From NCBI RefSeq assembly GCF_000317205.1, contig NZ_AJLK01000120.1:1-41199 (forward strand): a stretch of 41,199 bases of DNA, in the 5' to 3' direction. The first letter of the stretch is position 1. Every line of letters starts with the position of its first letter. Origin of the DNA: Fischerella muscicola PCC 7414 (GTDB lineage: Bacteria > Cyanobacteriota > Cyanobacteriia > Cyanobacteriales > Nostocaceae). Below, piece by piece: positions 3,922 through 33,634 of this stretch. Position numbers and translations under genes: made by a program. The notes below the pieces were generated by a model. That model was given only the letters and a program-made list of their open reading frames with translations. It did not search any database and was not told the origin of the DNA.

Positions 3922-4291
3922 AGGGGGATGGGGAGGTGGGGGTGGGGAGATATGAGGAGTGTGAGAGGTGTGAGGAATAAGTATTCAAAAACTACTAACC
4001 CTACCCTGACGGGAAGCCACTACCCTGCCTTAAGCCGCTACCTGCGGAAGCCGCTTCGCGTCTACGCGTCTACGTGTCTACGGGTTCGTCAGTCGCTCAT
4101 GGGGGACTCACCGGCCCCCACGACCGACAGGGAGGAGCCAGTGCGGTGGACGGGTTTCCCGGCATAAAGCACCTGGCGTTGGGGATTGGGGGCTAGGGGC
4201 CCCCTTTGGGGTTGGGGGAGGGACCCCCCTTGGGGCGCGCTGACTCACCACTAACCACTAACTACTAACTACTAACCACTCACTACTGTAC

Positions 4292-4311
4292 AGACGTGCC
4301 ATGGCACGTCT
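4292..4311. repeat. Perfect 20-nt palindrome, copy 1
   Basis: AGACGTGCCA is followed directly by its reverse complement TGGCACGTCT. The core is identical to that of the longer palindrome 56 bp downstream. It is flanked by CCACTAA heptamers. Confidence 0.9.
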
Positions 4312-4347
4312 CTACAATCAACAACCAACCACTAACTACTAACCACT

Positions 4348-4377
4348 GTACCAGACGTGCCATGGCACGTCTGGTAC
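4348..4377. repeat. Perfect 30-nt palindrome, copy 2
   Basis: GTACCAGACGTGCCA is followed immediately by its exact reverse complement, giving a 15-bp stem with no loop. It lies 31 bp upstream of the mnmD start. It may form a cruciform or an RNA hairpin in the mnmD leader, but its repeat-family context suggests a mobile or interspersed palindrome rather than a dedicated operator. Confidence 0.9.
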
Positions 4378-4407
4378 AACAATCAACAACCAACCACTAA
4401 CTAAATC

Positions 4408-10951: not shown

Positions 10952-13771
10952 TCAACTACTAGCTAAAGGTAACAATAAGCGACTGACTACCCGACGATCT
11001 GGTAATTGATAGAAATGCAATTCTCCGCCAAGTTGCTGCATGAGTTTTTGGCAGATTAATAGATGTAAACCGGGTAATTGCTCAAGCCTGGAGGGAGCAA
11101 GTATATCTTTCGGTGTATCTTGATGGAGTTCTGTCAGTAATTGTGATTCAATATCACCATTATCTGTAATGGATACTTCTAGGAACTGTTCATCTAGGCG
11201 ACGACACCAAATGTCTATTCTGCCACCAGTTGTGGAACGTTGACAGGCGCAAACTAGTAACTCATGCAGAATCAATTCTATTTTTACAACATCACCAGCG
11301 ATCGCTAAGGAAGAGTGAGGCAGAAGCGAATAATTTTTGGATGATTCTTCACCTTCCTGTTGTCCCAAACCATGCACACCTACCCATAGTCTTTGTTGTT
11401 TAAGTAAATGATCAACCCGTTCGAGCGATCGCTTTAATAAACTAGCGATGGGTACGGTTTCCCAACTCATCTGCAACTGCCATAGTTCCAGTTTTAATAA
11501 GGCTGTCATGGAAGCTGTGGTGTTATCTAATTGCCGTAGCAGCTGCTGGTAGCGCATGTGAGTTAGTTCGTTAGCAGGAATACCCAAATCATTCATTTGC
11601 AGAAGTAACTGTGTCACGGTTCTTTGGATATCTTCTAAACGGCGATGTTTATACCAATTGAGTTGTCTAAGTTCTTCTGTCCGAGACTCTAACATTTGGG
11701 TAATTTGCAGCCATCGCCGTGACCAAGCTAGTTGACAAATTAGAGTTTCTGTGGTTTTTAAACTATCTTCTAACCATTGACGTTGCCAATGGTCAGCTAT
11801 GACTACCACACCTGTGGGTTGATAATCAGCAGTAGTGCGTAATGCCATCACTAAAATTTGACCAATGCCAGCACCACTCAACCATTTTTTTGTAGCAGGA
11901 GGTAAATCATTAGCTGTGATAGGCAATAATTCCTCACTGAGTAACGCCCATTGAATTAAAGCTTCAGTTTGAAGTGGGATTGGCGTATTGATGACAATCT
12001 CAAATTCGGAATTGGCAATGACTCCAGGTATAATTTTTGCCACATTTTCTCCCGGTTGCCAAGATAACAGGATCGTTAATGAACAATTGAGAATGACAGC
12101 GATTTGTTCTAGGGCTGTGCGTTCTAGATGCTGGATAGGTTGTGTTGGAGAATCCTGGGATTGCTCTAGAATGCGAAGACATTGCTGAAAACTTTGCAAA
12201 ATTTTCTGCTGCTGTTCAGTTTGGTGATGCAACTGCCATTGGCGGATAGTGACACCAATTTGTTGAGCCACAACCTGGACTAATTCTTTTTCTATTGATG
12301 TCCAACTACGATGGGTTTCTGTGGCTAAAGCTAACAGTACTTTCGGTTCTTGACCAAAAGCGCAGTTACAAACTACAAGCGATCGCACACCATTTTCTAA
12401 TAAGTGAGGATGCCAATTAAAAAACCGTAAATCTGTTGCTAAATTCTCAATTGCTACTGCTTCCGTAGAACGTAATAAAAGCTGACAATCCACATCTTTG
12501 AGAGCTTCCAAAGAATACGTTAGAGGACGACGATTATGTGGTTGATTTTGGTAAAAAATTTGATAATTATTTTGTTCAGGATTGTAATGCAGTAACAAAA
12601 ACCGAGTTGCAAGCAAGCGTTGTAAAACTTTTGCGGCACAGAGGTCTAAAATTTCTTGAATGTCATAATTACTATAAATACCTTGGGCAATCTCACTAGT
12701 TAAATAGGCATCATTTTGAATTTGTTTGATAGTACTTTCTGTCTCTTCTAGAGGCGCCACCAGAGAAGTTAAACCAGCAACAGTCTTAGTAAAGTTTTTT
12801 TCTGCCTCTGTCCAGATGCGCGATTCAGTACTTTCTACAGTCAAAAAGCCCAGTAAATCCTTTTGCCAGATAATTGGAGCGGCTAACAGACTACGTACTC
12901 CAAAACGTTGCAGCAACTTCACTGTGAAATTACTTTTTAAAGAACTGCGTCCTTCGCCAATCCAGACAATTTCATTGACTGACAAAGCAATATAAAAATC
13001 ACTAAGTTCGTGTACTGTAATTTTTGCTGTTGTTTCCTGATAGTTTTTTTTGTTACTTAATCGCCGCCAAAAGTAATAGCCTTCCCTGTCAAACCAGTAA
13101 ATATTTGTACGGGTAGGTAGAATAAATTCTTGCGTAGCTTCTACGACTGTTTCTAATCTTTTTTCTAGATGATTGAGAGCTTGTAAATTATTTAGTAAAC
13201 GTAGTAATGGCTCGTCGAGGCGCTTGGTTTGCTTGTGCTGCAAATCCATTTCTTTTTCATAAAGTGCAGCCCCCAATTCACCTACAACCATCATCAACCT
13301 GGCTCTGGCTTCTCCACCCAACAAGTAACCCCAGCGTTCAGAACCGAGTAATACTAAACCCAAACAGCGGTTTTTATAGCAAATAGGAACTACTATTGTT
13401 CCTTGGATATTTAATTGTTGTGCTAAATGTTGCCATGCCTCAATCCGAATTTCTGCTCGTAAATCAGCTACACCCAAGGGGCGCTGTTCAATTACTACTT
13501 GCTCTAACAAATCTCCAGGATTGAGAACTACCCGTTGTTGTAAATAACTGGTGTTACCGCTAGGGGTAACGCCACCTTGCCCAAACAACATATGATTGAG
13601 GCGATCATAAAGAGCAATCCAAATTAGGCTGTATTCAAACTGCTCTTGCAGATAGGAAATTGTGGTTGCAATCAGAGCATCAACATGATCTTCTTCCCTG
13701 AGACTTTGCAGAACTCGTCCCAAGGAAATGATTTGTTGTTCGGCGGCTGTAAGTTTTTGTTGCTGCCTCAT
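10952..13771 (-). CDS. Multi-GAF histidine-kinase-like sensor protein
   Basis: The protein has 939 residues. Four GAF-like sensor domains are suggested by repeated helix-strand patterns at about 20-170, 195-345, 360-510 and 540-690 (for example LLAAPIIWQKDLLGFLTVES in the second). A helical linker follows (695-800), and a GHKL-type ATPase region lies at about 800-935, with ITDNGD and LHLLICQKLMQQLGGELHF as G1/G2-like boxes. The usual H-box (SHELRTPL) is not present; the linker has WYKHRRLEDIQ instead. The N-box is also atypical (IELILHELLVCAC, without the conserved Asn pair). It may be a degenerate kinase or a scaffold. No GAF cysteine typical of bilin attachment could be assigned with confidence. 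It is divergent from pyrD, with about 90 bp between starts. Confidence 0.8.
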   Translation of the reverse strand: MRQQQKLTAAEQQIISLGRVLQSLREEDHVDALIATTISYLQEQFEYSLIWIALYDRLNHMLFGQGGVTPSGNTSYLQQRVVLNPGDLLEQVVIEQRPLGVADLRAEIRIEAWQHLAQQLNIQGTIVVPICYKNRCLGLVLLGSERWGYLLGGEARARLMMVVGELGAALYEKEMDLQHKQTKRLDEPLLRLLNNLQALNHLEKRLETVVEATQEFILPTRTNIYWFDREGYYFWRRLSNKKNYQETTAKITVHELSDFYIALSVNEIVWIGEGRSSLKSNFTVKLLQRFGVRSLLAAPIIWQKDLLGFLTVESTESRIWTEAEKNFTKTVAGLTSLVAPLEETESTIKQIQNDAYLTSEIAQGIYSNYDIQEILDLCAAKVLQRLLATRFLLLHYNPEQNNYQIFYQNQPHNRRPLTYSLEALKDVDCQLLLRSTEAVAIENLATDLRFFNWHPHLLENGVRSLVVCNCAFGQEPKVLLALATETHRSWTSIEKELVQVVAQQIGVTIRQWQLHHQTEQQQKILQSFQQCLRILEQSQDSPTQPIQHLERTALEQIAVILNCSLTILLSWQPGENVAKIIPGVIANSEFEIVINTPIPLQTEALIQWALLSEELLPITANDLPPATKKWLSGAGIGQILVMALRTTADYQPTGVVVIADHWQRQWLEDSLKTTETLICQLAWSRRWLQITQMLESRTEELRQLNWYKHRRLEDIQRTVTQLLLQMNDLGIPANELTHMRYQQLLRQLDNTTASMTALLKLELWQLQMSWETVPIASLLKRSLERVDHLLKQQRLWVGVHGLGQQEGEESSKNYSLLPHSSLAIAGDVVKIELILHELLVCACQRSTTGGRIDIWCRRLDEQFLEVSITDNGDIESQLLTELHQDTPKDILAPSRLEQLPGLHLLICQKLMQQLGGELHFYQLPDRRVVSRLLLPLASS

Positions 13772-15854: not shown

Positions 15855-16266
15855 ATGACTCTTAGGGAAATAATATTATCTTGGCAAAAATCTGGACAAA
15901 AATTTGTAGTTTTTGTATTTTTGCCAAAAATTTTCCTGGCAAAACTGAATTTTCCACGAGGGAGGTGGGGAACTGGGGAGGTGTGAGGGGTATGAGAAGT
16001 GTGAGGAGTGTGAGGAGTGTGTAGACGCCCGGAGGGCGGCTTCAAGGTGGAGTACCCAGAGGGCTTCCCGTAAGGGTGGAGTGTGAGAAGAATAAATAGT
16101 AACAAATGACCAATGACAAATGACCACCAACCACCAACCACTAACCACTAACCACTAACCACTAACTACTAACCACTAACCACTAACTACTAACCACTAA
16201 CCACTAACTACTAACCACTAACCACTAACTACTAACTACTAACTACTAACCATTGACAATTGACAA
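15855..16266. repeat. Repeat-filled intergenic region
   Basis: No gene is supported. The region carries a G-rich GTGTGAGG tract (15960-16020), GC-rich dispersed-repeat modules (16020-16080, GTAGACGCCCGGAGGGCGGC and GGCTTCCCGTAAGG), CAATGAC-type units (16105-16123) and the long CCACTAA array listed separately. The module order matches the region at 3922-4100. Confidence 0.8.
16124..16249. repeat. 18-copy heptamer array with 21-bp higher-order period
   Basis: Eighteen perfect-length 7-bp units (CCACCAA, CCACTAA or CTACTAA) follow each other without gaps. From 16152 the order CCACTAA-CCACTAA-CTACTAA repeats four times, giving a nested 21-bp period, then two further CTACTAA units. This is a short tandemly repeated repetitive (STRR) sequence of the heterocystous cyanobacterial type. 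It lies just downstream of cobO. Confidence 0.95.
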
Positions 16267-30672: not shown

Positions 30673-30972
<300 letters not shown>

Positions 30973-31105: not shown

Positions 31106-31390
31106 GGGCAACGGGGATCGGGAATTGGGGCAGATGGGGCCCCGAGTTATAACGGAACTGGTTCTGGCGATAAGTATAAAGACTGGCAGTATTCTTGCTC
31201 AGCTTCTTTCACCTTATCAAGATTGAGAGACCAGGACAGACAAGTTAACTTGGTGTTTGATTATGCTAATAATGTGAAGGGAGCAAATGATAACAAGCAA
31301 ATTGCCAGTAGTAAATTAATAAATGCTGCGGAAATTAAAATCAAAAAGCTTTTTCCTTTCATAGGACAACAGCTAAGAGATTTTTTATAA
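31106..31390 (+). pseudogene. Orphan C-terminal coding fragment, unrecognised
   Basis: A plus-strand open stretch of about 95 codons ends at TAA 31388. The last 80 codons (from about 31154) read like a real protein: GSGDKYKDWQYSCSASFTLS..., then VNLVFDYANNVKGAND and LINAAEIKIKKLFPFIGQQL. There is no ATG or GTG start at the head; the first 15 codons are GC-rich dispersed-repeat DNA (the ACTCACCGGCCCCCACGACCG module ends at 31088). It is probably the 3' end of a gene whose 5' part was replaced by repeat DNA. The TOBE gene's operator array starts ten bases after its stop. Confidence 0.4.
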
Positions 31391-31399
31391 AATCAACGG

Positions 31400-31448
31400 T
31401 TGGTAGGATACTACCAAAATTACCAACAATATACCAACTGATTTGGTA
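31400..31448. promoter_or_regulatory. Array of five TACCAA/TTGGTA half-sites
   Basis: TTGGTA occurs at 31400-31405, TACCAA at 31412-31417, 31421-31426 and 31432-31437, and TTGGTA at 31443-31448. Start-to-start spacings are 12, 9, 11 and 11 bp, close to one helical turn. The first two form an inverted repeat TTGGTAG-GATA-CTACCAA. The array ends 5 bp before the start codon of the RHH-TOBE gene, an arrangement expected for an autoregulatory operator of a ribbon-helix-helix repressor. Confidence 0.65.
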
Positions 31449-31453
31449 AAGCT

Positions 31454-31900
31454 ATGCCAAGAAAAGAACAAGGATGGATTACATTTCAAACCTCTGAGGA
31501 GGAACGAAAAATGCTGGAGGAGTTTTGCCAGCAATCTCAACGCACAAAGACAGAGGTTCTACGGGAATTTGTACGCAGTTTGAACAAAGAGTCTCCAGTA
31601 TCTTCAGTTTCTCTAGCCTCATTACCAACTATGCCTAAAGAAGAAGATGCTAGCACTCACTCAACAGAAGTTACTACTCAAAAGAAACCATTAAAAGTTA
31701 GTTCCCGAAATGTTCTCAAAGGGGTTGTCACTAAAATTGTGAATGGACCAGTCAATAGTGAAGTAACACTAGAGATTGTTCATAAAGTCCAGCTAACTTC
31801 TGTGATCACTAAGGTTTCAAGTGAAGAATTAGAACTGGCTGTCGGAGGAGAAGCCTATGCTGTAATTAAATCTACAGACATAGTAATTGCCAAAGACTGA
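31454..31900 (+). CDS. RHH-like plus TOBE (Mop) domain fusion protein
   Basis: The protein has 148 residues. Residues 1-46 (GWITFQTSEEERKMLEEFCQ, then RTKTEVLREFVRSL) have the strand-helix-helix pattern of ribbon-helix-helix DNA-binding proteins. A Ser/Thr/Lys linker (48-78) leads to a single TOBE/Mop domain (about 80-146: SSRNVLKGVVTKIVNGPVNS, then ELELAVGGEAYAVIKSTDIV). Mop domains bind molybdate or tungstate as oligomers; the RNxLxGxV and NSEVTLEI segments are typical. I infer a small oxyanion-responsive regulator of its own promoter, supported by the half-site array upstream. No molybdate transporter or molybdopterin gene lies nearby. Known ModE regulators have a winged helix rather than RHH, so this architecture is different. 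Confidence 0.8.
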   Translation: MPRKEQGWITFQTSEEERKMLEEFCQQSQRTKTEVLREFVRSLNKESPVSSVSLASLPTMPKEEDASTHSTEVTTQKKPLKVSSRNVLKGVVTKIVNGPVNSEVTLEIVHKVQLTSVITKVSSEELELAVGGEAYAVIKSTDIVIAKD

Positions 31901-32242: not shown

Positions 32243-33634
32243 TTATCTACCCACACCAATATACTGGAAGCCAGCCCTCATCATCATTTCTGGATCGAGG
32301 AAGTTACGACCGTCGATCATAACTGGATGGCTCATTAATTTTGCCATTTGAGTGTAGTCAAGAGTTTTGAACTGCTGCCATTCGGTTACAATCACTAAAG
32401 CATCACAACCATCAGCAAGTCTTTGTGGATCGGTTTCTACTAACACACCAGTAAGACCATCACGCAAACCAGATTGGGAAACAATGGGGTCATATGCTTT
32501 GACTTTTGCTCCTAGTCTATTGAGCTGCTCAATTAAGTTGAGTGCAGGGGCGTCGCGCATGTCATCGGTATCAGGTTTAAAGGTAAGACCAAGTAGTCCG
32601 ATAGTTTTACCTTTAAGAATTTTGAGGGCTTGTTGGAGTTTTTCAACAGCAATCAAGCGCTGGCGTTGGTTGACGCTAACAGCGGCTTTGAGTAGCTGGG
32701 CTTCATAGCCGTAGTCATCGGCGGTGTGAATGAGGGCTGCGACATCTTTCGGGAAGCAGGAACCACCCCAGCCAATACCAGCATTTAAGAATTTATTCCC
32801 AATTCGGGAGTCTAAGCCTATACCTTTTGCTACCTGGGTAACATCAGCACCGACGCGATCGCAAATGTTAGCAACTTCGTTAATAAAACTTATCTTGGTT
32901 GCTAAAAAAGCATTAGCTGCATATTTAATCATTTCTGCTGAACTCAAATCTGTTACCAACACTGGTACTGGGGGTAAAGATTGATCCTCAGCATATTTAC
33001 GCTCCACAATAGGAGCATATAATTGTTCCATCATCGCGATCGCTTTGGGGCTATTGCCACCTAAAACAATGCGATCTGGGTTGAAGGTATCATAAACCGC
33101 TGAACCTTCCCGCAAAAATTCTGGGTTACTCACCACATCAAACTGGGCTGTAATTTCTGGTAATTGTTCATCATCACGCACCCCACCAGCGGGTACGAGT
33201 GTTTTTTGCCGTTCAGCGATACCATCTAGTACAATCATCCGTACCCAGTCACCAGAACCAATCGGTACAGTAGATTTATTGACAATTACTTTATAGCCAC
33301 CATCAAGGTGAGAGCCAATACCACGAGCCACAGCTTCCACATAACGAGTATCACTTTCACCAGTCGGTAGGGGTGGTGTCCCTACAGCAATAAACAAAAT
33401 TTCTCCGTGATTGACTCCTGCACTAAGATCAGTTGTGAACTGGATTTTACCAGTATTGATAGAATTTTGCATGATTTCTGAAAGCCCAGGCTCAAAAATA
33501 GGTGATTGCCCAGACTTCATTAACTTAACTTTTTCTTCGTTGTTATCTACGCAAATGACATCATGACCAATGTGAGCCAAGCAAGCGCCTGTAACCAAAC
33601 CAACATAACCAGTACCAATTACACAAACACGCAT
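32243..33634 (-). CDS. ugd: UDP-glucose 6-dehydrogenase
   Basis: The protein has 463 residues. The NAD-binding loop is IGTGYVGLVTGACLAHIG at the N-terminus, followed by VGTPPLPTGESD, FDVVSNPEFLREGSAV and the catalytic Cys 293 in GWGGSCFPKD. The C-terminal domain contains LGLTFKPDTDDMRDAP. It oxidises UDP-glucose twice to UDP-glucuronate. The next gene upstream on the same strand encodes UDP-glucuronate decarboxylase, so this pair converts UDP-glucose to UDP-xylose, used for exopolysaccharide and possibly heterocyst-envelope or glycolipid decoration. The 119-bp gap between the two carries a CAAC/GTTG hairpin, so co-transcription is plausible but not proven. Confidence 0.96.
   Translation of the reverse strand: MRVCVIGTGYVGLVTGACLAHIGHDVICVDNNEEKVKLMKSGQSPIFEPGLSEIMQNSINTGKIQFTTDLSAGVNHGEILFIAVGTPPLPTGESDTRYVEAVARGIGSHLDGGYKVIVNKSTVPIGSGDWVRMIVLDGIAERQKTLVPAGGVRDDEQLPEITAQFDVVSNPEFLREGSAVYDTFNPDRIVLGGNSPKAIAMMEQLYAPIVERKYAEDQSLPPVPVLVTDLSSAEMIKYAANAFLATKISFINEVANICDRVGADVTQVAKGIGLDSRIGNKFLNAGIGWGGSCFPKDVAALIHTADDYGYEAQLLKAAVSVNQRQRLIAVEKLQQALKILKGKTIGLLGLTFKPDTDDMRDAPALNLIEQLNRLGAKVKAYDPIVSQSGLRDGLTGVLVETDPQRLADGCDALVIVTEWQQFKTLDYTQMAKLMSHPVMIDGRNFLDPEMMMRAGFQYIGVGR

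Follow-up and report, generated by a model that had tools for sequence, protein, structure and literature searches.

The window analyzed here, a stretch of 41,199 nucleotides from the cyanobacterium Fischerella muscicola PCC 7414, carries a gene of 148 codons plus stop (31454 to 31900, plus strand), which we call rhh-mop and whose product joins a ribbon-helix-helix (RHH)-like head to a single Mop/TOBE tail. The open reading frame (ORF) has homologues in many relatives of this strain. A compact array of TACCAA/TTGGTA half-sites directly precedes it, and half-sites of the same kind precede the molybdate transport gene modA and unlinked modBC genes. On sequence grounds, RHH-Mop is very probably a ModE-like repressor of modA, modBC, and itself, built on an RHH head and activated by molybdate or tungstate. 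For RHH-Mop we infer DNA binding, molybdenum (Mo) or tungsten (W) as the ligand, repression as the polarity, and oligomerization driven by the ligand.

The half-site array upstream of rhh-mop

As originally noted, five exact half-sites lie directly 5′ of the rhh-mop start codon, spanning 31400 to 31448 and ending 5 bases before it, with start-to-start spacings of 12, 9, 11, and 11. Site 1 (31400 to 31405, minus strand, TTGGTA on the plus strand) forms an inverted pair with site 2 (TACCAA, 31412 to 31417, plus strand) across a gap of 6. Site 3 (TACCAA, 31421 to 31426, plus strand) is not kept in all relatives. Site 4 (TACCAA, 31432 to 31437, plus strand) and site 5 (31443 to 31448, minus strand, TTGGTA on the plus strand) form a second inverted pair with a gap of 5; among 90 distinct upstream regions of homologues, they recur at positions −22 (46 regions) and −11 (48 regions), respectively. 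The largest half-site cluster in 300 first-order Markov windows held three sites (4 of the 300 windows), so a cluster of five in 49 bp is beyond chance, and the hexamer occurs 46 times over the whole window versus 28.1 expected. Other hexamers reach 5 to 7 copies per 49 bp in the window, several of which look like parts of simple tandem repeats. That the array is itself a simple tandem repeat was rejected, as the operator is absent from the window's tandem repeat list. Heptanucleotide tandem repeats, which are common in cyanobacterial intergenic DNA, are present at 4243 to 4403 and 16123 to 16252 (ACTAACC, ACCACTA).

A promoter and terminator scan of the region found nothing resembling a sigma-70 promoter at the array. 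The inverted pair at 31400 to 31417 scored weakly as a minus-strand terminator (2 such sites versus 1.0 expected), and this reading was given no weight. A Mo riboswitch was likewise rejected, since Rfam at gathering scores finds only one tRNA in the window.

The array is widely conserved. A match to rhh-mop at an E value of ≤1e-15 was found in 194 of 217 genomes of the searched family, whose named members include Nostoc, Fischerella, Calothrix, and the like; 11 of these matches, at 1e-16 to 1e-18, are at the level of stand-alone Mop proteins, and 183 genomes have stronger ones. Among 117 loci, 110 had a gene beginning with PRKEQGW, which yielded the 90 distinct upstream regions. Exact half-sites were absent from 6 of these, single in 10, and at least two in number in 74, while the density farther upstream was 0.13 per 110 nucleotides (nt). 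We also assembled 38 nonredundant upstream regions: 31 from the family, including a paralogue from a vnf cluster, and at most 7 others, six of them from outside the family. Here TACCAA/TTGGTA was the most enriched hexamer, present in 35 of 38 regions versus a shuffled mean of 3.9 (standard deviation, 2.3), so that the expected retention of the array by orthologues was confirmed in all but three cases (L024, L090, and L282), which had no half-site. Adjoining half-sites in the 38 regions were mostly 11 apart as TACCAA...TTGGTA (23 cases) or 12 apart as TTGGTA...TACCAA (11 cases). Pair spacings concentrate at 11 to 12, 19 to 22, 30 to 32, and 42 to 43, which may reflect helical phasing; periods from 10 to 11 fit these raw counts alike. 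The search was extended beyond the family to 386 genomes of the phylum, and 8 RHH-Mop places in 7 genomes were fetched. At least three exact sites stood within 150 nt upstream at 7 of the 8 places (L282 had none), and rhh-mop was divergent to modA at 6 of the 8.

Half-sites at the molybdate transport genes

One-mismatch scans located a second array in the Fischerella genome, directly upstream of modA (G000:C4:64631-64677). This modA scores 238 bits against TIGR01256 (cutoff, 62.5) and is followed by a 603-residue ORF read as a fused modBC. We then scanned 208 genomes of the family with a strict four-site pattern, using the reversed pattern as the control. The strict array occurs at two places in the Fischerella genome, before rhh-mop and before modA. 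Over all genomes, the pattern was matched 46 times, in 36 of the 208, and the reversed pattern not once. By coordinates, 19 matches lie before rhh-mop, 21 before modA, 5 in a divergent gap shared by both genes, and 1 elsewhere; in all 24 strict-pattern cases at rhh-mop, 5 or 6 bases separate the end of the array from the start codon. The last match (G192) is an intact array; behind it lies an ORF (L286, 4019 to 4324) that opens with ModA sequence and finishes in a Mop domain, apparently a deletion fusion. The strict pattern is not matched in the other 172 genomes, many of which hold degenerate versions. Single-pair scans of the Fischerella genome with one mismatch were noisy (64 and 56 matches versus 22 and 24 for the reversed pattern), and further targets were not named from them.

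We used 70 modA loci from genomes with RHH-Mop, 40 picked for genus spread and 30 taken as best matches. Upstream regions were scored for a paired site with a maximum of 12. A score of 11 to 12 was reached in 62 of 70 regions and a score of at least 10 in 69, the clear miss being G091; shuffled sequence reached 11 in 4 of 1,880 trials. rhh-mop and modA are divergent neighbors at 27 of the 70 loci (18 of the 40 genus-spread loci and 9 of the 30 best matches). Such a pair shares one array, whereas the pair is split in the Fischerella genome, with a full array at each gene. Among the 22 genus-spread loci where rhh-mop is not adjacent, 21 have one or more exact sites before modA and 19 have two or more. 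In G069, of the same genus as the Fischerella genome, the strand opposite modA carries, upstream of that gene, 16 residues that match the end of RHH-Mop (81%, E value of 3e-4), and this remnant suggests that an original rhh-mop copy beside modA was lost.

A modBC match is present in 202 of 208 genomes, and the 30 best-matching loci were examined. All 16 loci with no modA in the 1.5-kb flank had at least two exact half-sites within 200 nt; among the 14 loci with modA nearby, 13 had no half-site and 1 had a single one. The unlinked loci are arranged as TACCAA-N26-TTGGTA (12 loci, four with an extra TACCAA at N16) or with spacers of N16 (3 loci) or N25 (1 locus); drawn from few genera, they are not independent. 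The strict pattern thus points to modA, and half-sites at 16 of 16 loci point to unlinked modBC, as probable further targets.

Homologues of the head without a Mop domain, of 69 and 65 residues, lie near nitrogenase genes (L284, 5420 to 5626; L285, 3003 to 3197). For both of the RHH-only homologues examined, TACCAA-N5-TTGGTA stands ahead of the gene's own start codon, and because these Mop-less proteins keep the same promoter site, the site follows the RHH head. The Fischerella genome also encodes an RHH-Mop paralogue (54% identity over residues 1 to 143) at 11246 to 11686 on the minus strand of L149 (G000:C109:1-20000), in a vanadium (V) nitrogenase cluster assigned by VNFD and vnfG matches over the cutoff. 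Upstream of this paralogue there is only one TTGGTA-N6-TACC-like pair. At 1531 to 1554 of the same locus, two TTGGTA half-sites precede a gene that matches no Pfam family (1670 to 2353), with a stand-alone mop gene after it; these half-sites possibly mark a further target.

An RHH-like head and a Mop tail

The predicted RHH domain comprises residues 7 to 45 (31472 to 31588, plus strand), with a putative DNA-reading strand, GWITFQ, followed by helices at residues 15 to 28 and 32 to 45. No RHH profile exceeded its cutoff for the window protein (TraY, E value of 0.059), and 10 scanned homologues (8 RHH-Mop and 2 RHH-only proteins) also stayed under it. The RHH_1 profile matches 12 of 19 diverse homologous N termini, with a best E value of 3.6e-6, and residues W8, T10, F11, and Q12 of the putative strand are invariant in all 19. 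An AlphaFold model of residues 1 to 48 gave both helices at a mean predicted local distance difference test (pLDDT) value of 82.9, with no strand assigned in the monomer. The head is thus modeled as a monomer of about 45 residues in which an extended N-terminal segment precedes two helices, the build that defines the RHH superfamily. Its best Foldseek/VIA matches are mostly RHH proteins (CopG, PutA, Arc, and NikR), at E values that are not significant. A search of solved structures with the N-terminal profile yielded 8 matches, none credible and none to an RHH entry (best E value, 0.15). By the model, the fold of residues 1 to 48 is predicted to resemble that of an RHH monomer. The original prediction had named residues 1 to 46 as an RHH domain; the RHH-like fold stood, and the fold matches fell short of E value significance for a model that covers the monomer only. 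The full-length AlphaFold model has low overall confidence (mean pLDDT, 64.4; predicted template modeling score, 0.39).

A variable, low-confidence linker (residues 46 to 79; 31589 to 31690, plus strand; pLDDT of <50 at residues 47 to 57, 62 to 76, and 78 to 83) leads to the Mop/TOBE domain at residues 80 to 147 (31691 to 31894, plus strand), which has the solved relatives Mop, ModG, and Tub. Residues 83 to 143 match Pfam TOBE (E value of 2.1e-12), with one TOBE only, and residues 80 to 147 match Mop profile TIGR00638 (E value of 6.3e-19; 67.8 bits versus a cutoff of 55). Together with the RHH_1 matches and the head model, these results uphold the proposed fusion of an RHH-like domain to one molybdate/tungstate-binding TOBE domain.

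The tail aligns with Tub without gaps. Tub is described in PMC11980592 as a single-TOBE protein that assembles into a trimer of dimers and binds oxyanions at the subunit interfaces, where tungstate is contacted by the side chains of Ser4 and Lys60, the backbone of Arg6, and Ser40 of a neighboring subunit. Tub residues Ser4, Arg6, Ser40, and Lys60 correspond to S83, R85, T119, and K139 of RHH-Mop, which therefore has the residues expected at the type 2 oxyanion site. Across 43 homologues, these four positions vary little or not at all, and the replacement of Ser40 by Thr is also seen in ModG in the same alignments.

The neighbors of rhh-mop, read by eye, appear to be a PsaC-like ferredoxin (30673 to 30969, minus strand) and a UDP-glucose 6-dehydrogenase (32243 to 33634, minus strand), so that rhh-mop seems to stand alone here.

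Proposed regulation, alternatives, and known systems

Recognition of modA and modBC as probable further targets and retention of the Mop ligand positions strengthen the idea that RHH-Mop is an oxyanion-sensing autorepressor. RHH proteins bind DNA as dimers, and the RHH head would, as a dimer, read TACCAA half-sites via its beta-ribbon, while the Mop tail would take up molybdate or tungstate between subunits. With the oxyanion in ample supply, the oligomers that it stabilizes would bind cooperatively along the phased array and switch off rhh-mop, modA, and any modBC with its own promoter; when Mo is scarce, RHH-Mop would leave the DNA and the uptake genes would be expressed. Because Tub is a trimer of dimers and RHH proteins are dimeric, a hexamer could present three RHH dimers to half-sites spaced by roughly one helical turn, and Mo or W may favor the hexamer state and thus repression. 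We tentatively extend this to a separate class of oxyanion sensors, a scheme that we consider somewhat improbable as a whole. Mo or W would glue Mop tails into a trimer of dimers, and the three RHH dimers, all on the same face, would engage a helically phased array simultaneously, the ligand raising valency and not reshaping the head. The RHH head, with or without Mop, would be deployed at V-nitrogenase clusters, and lineages lacking it would pass modA to a regulator of the helix-turn-helix (HTH) plus PBP-like type with its own operator.

It is unlikely that the array belongs to another regulator, such as NtcA or a second RHH protein, with RHH-Mop a mere target and Mo store. What weighs against the repressor proposal, and for this alternative, is that modA upstream regions of genomes without a full RHH-Mop still reach a pair score of at least 11 in 8 of 24 cases (at least 10 in 10 of 24), the eight being G020, G036, G046, G055, G083, G176, G212, and G213. 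Recent loss of rhh-mop is likely in G046 and G055, which belong to a genus (g18) whose other 14 members have RHH-Mop, and in G083, where an apparent decayed rhh-mop start remains beside modA. The remaining five, including G020, which holds an RHH fragment elsewhere in its genome, are unexplained. Against another owner, 16 of the 24 genomes have no pair scoring at least 11 before modA, and both RHH-only homologues examined carry this site in the promoters of their own genes. NtcA itself was rejected, as its site, GTAN8TAC, occurs in 0 of the 38 upstream regions and nowhere at 31340 to 31453. Slightly less probable still is that RHH-Mop activates modA under Mo shortage. Polarity is not readable from sequence, but an array that ends 5 to 6 bases before the rhh-mop start codon is suited to blocking, and Mo and W repress a Mo transport gene of Anabaena variabilis, according to PMC4284476.

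The chance that RHH-Mop is an ordinary ModE family member is very small. The two share a Mop/TOBE domain and probably the target modA, and the passage in PMC4284476 speaks of a modE homologue, if the same gene is meant. Pfam and TIGR profile scans gave no winged-helix match for the window protein, which has an RHH-like head instead. A search for canonical ModE in relatives gave weak matches in 60 of 100 genomes and none of 100 over the TIGR00637 cutoff, with controls over the cutoff in 2 of 14 named genomes. The proposed design distinct from winged-helix ModE is supported by these results.

In several genomes without RHH-Mop (e.g., G101, G010, and G009), a regulator of the HTH_3 plus PBP_like type is encoded no more than 3 kb from modA. 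By eye, the modA promoter there carries a common element of approximately ATGTNAGTTATNCTTGCTACAG, and a similar element lies upstream of the corresponding regulator in the Fischerella genome. That regulator precedes vnfH (L149, 9640 to 10887, minus strand) and is matched at an E value of 1e-40 in 113 of 208 genomes. An HTH plus PBP-like regulator possibly replaces RHH-Mop at modA in those genomes.

The availability of Mo affects both nitrogen fixation and the use of nitrate, and the heterocystous cyanobacteria are important among nitrogen fixers. In many cyanobacteria, Mo uptake appears to be under the control of RHH-Mop in place of the textbook regulator ModE, and the proposal supplies a concrete candidate sensor, operator, and regulon for this uptake, testable in Nostoc or Anabaena. 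Among the papers listed for such a regulator in the open-license PubMed Central literature, which omits most subscription papers, we found none describing an RHH (CopG) domain combined with TOBE/Mop. Of those listed there for ModE in cyanobacteria, PMC4284476 was the one paper that we found to mention the regulator.

Among known systems, ModE, the molybdate-dependent E. coli repressor of modABCD, resembles RHH-Mop in its Mop/TOBE sensing part, its transporter target, and the expected Mo/W-dependent repression. It differs in having a winged helix and two TOBE domains where RHH-Mop has an RHH head, one TOBE domain, and a TACCAA half-site array. Mop, MopII, ModG, and Tub have the same domain and ligand positions but no DNA-binding head, and they store or buffer oxyanion. 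NikR, the nickel repressor and one of the fold matches of the head, has a similar plan, an RHH head fused to an oligomerizing metal ligand domain; in NikR, that domain is ACT-like and binds nickel. The Arc, CopG, and omega repressors share the RHH fold but have no ligand domain, and the operators of Arc and omega consist of repeated short sites about one turn apart. VnfR1 and VnfR2 of A. variabilis (Ava_4042/Ava_4055) are likewise Mo-responsive cyanobacterial repressors, of V-nitrogenase genes; unlike RHH-Mop, they are described in PMC4284476 with an N-terminal HTH, and they probably correspond to the HTH plus PBP-like protein before vnfH. Citing Zahalak 2004, the same source places a modE homologue just upstream of modA in A. 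variabilis, as the proposed regulator of the Mo transport gene. That position fits the divergent rhh-mop/modA pair of relatives, and this homologue is probably RHH-Mop. We place RHH-Mop as a Mop-type Mo-responsive repressor built on an RHH head, a second build for Mo sensing beside ModE.
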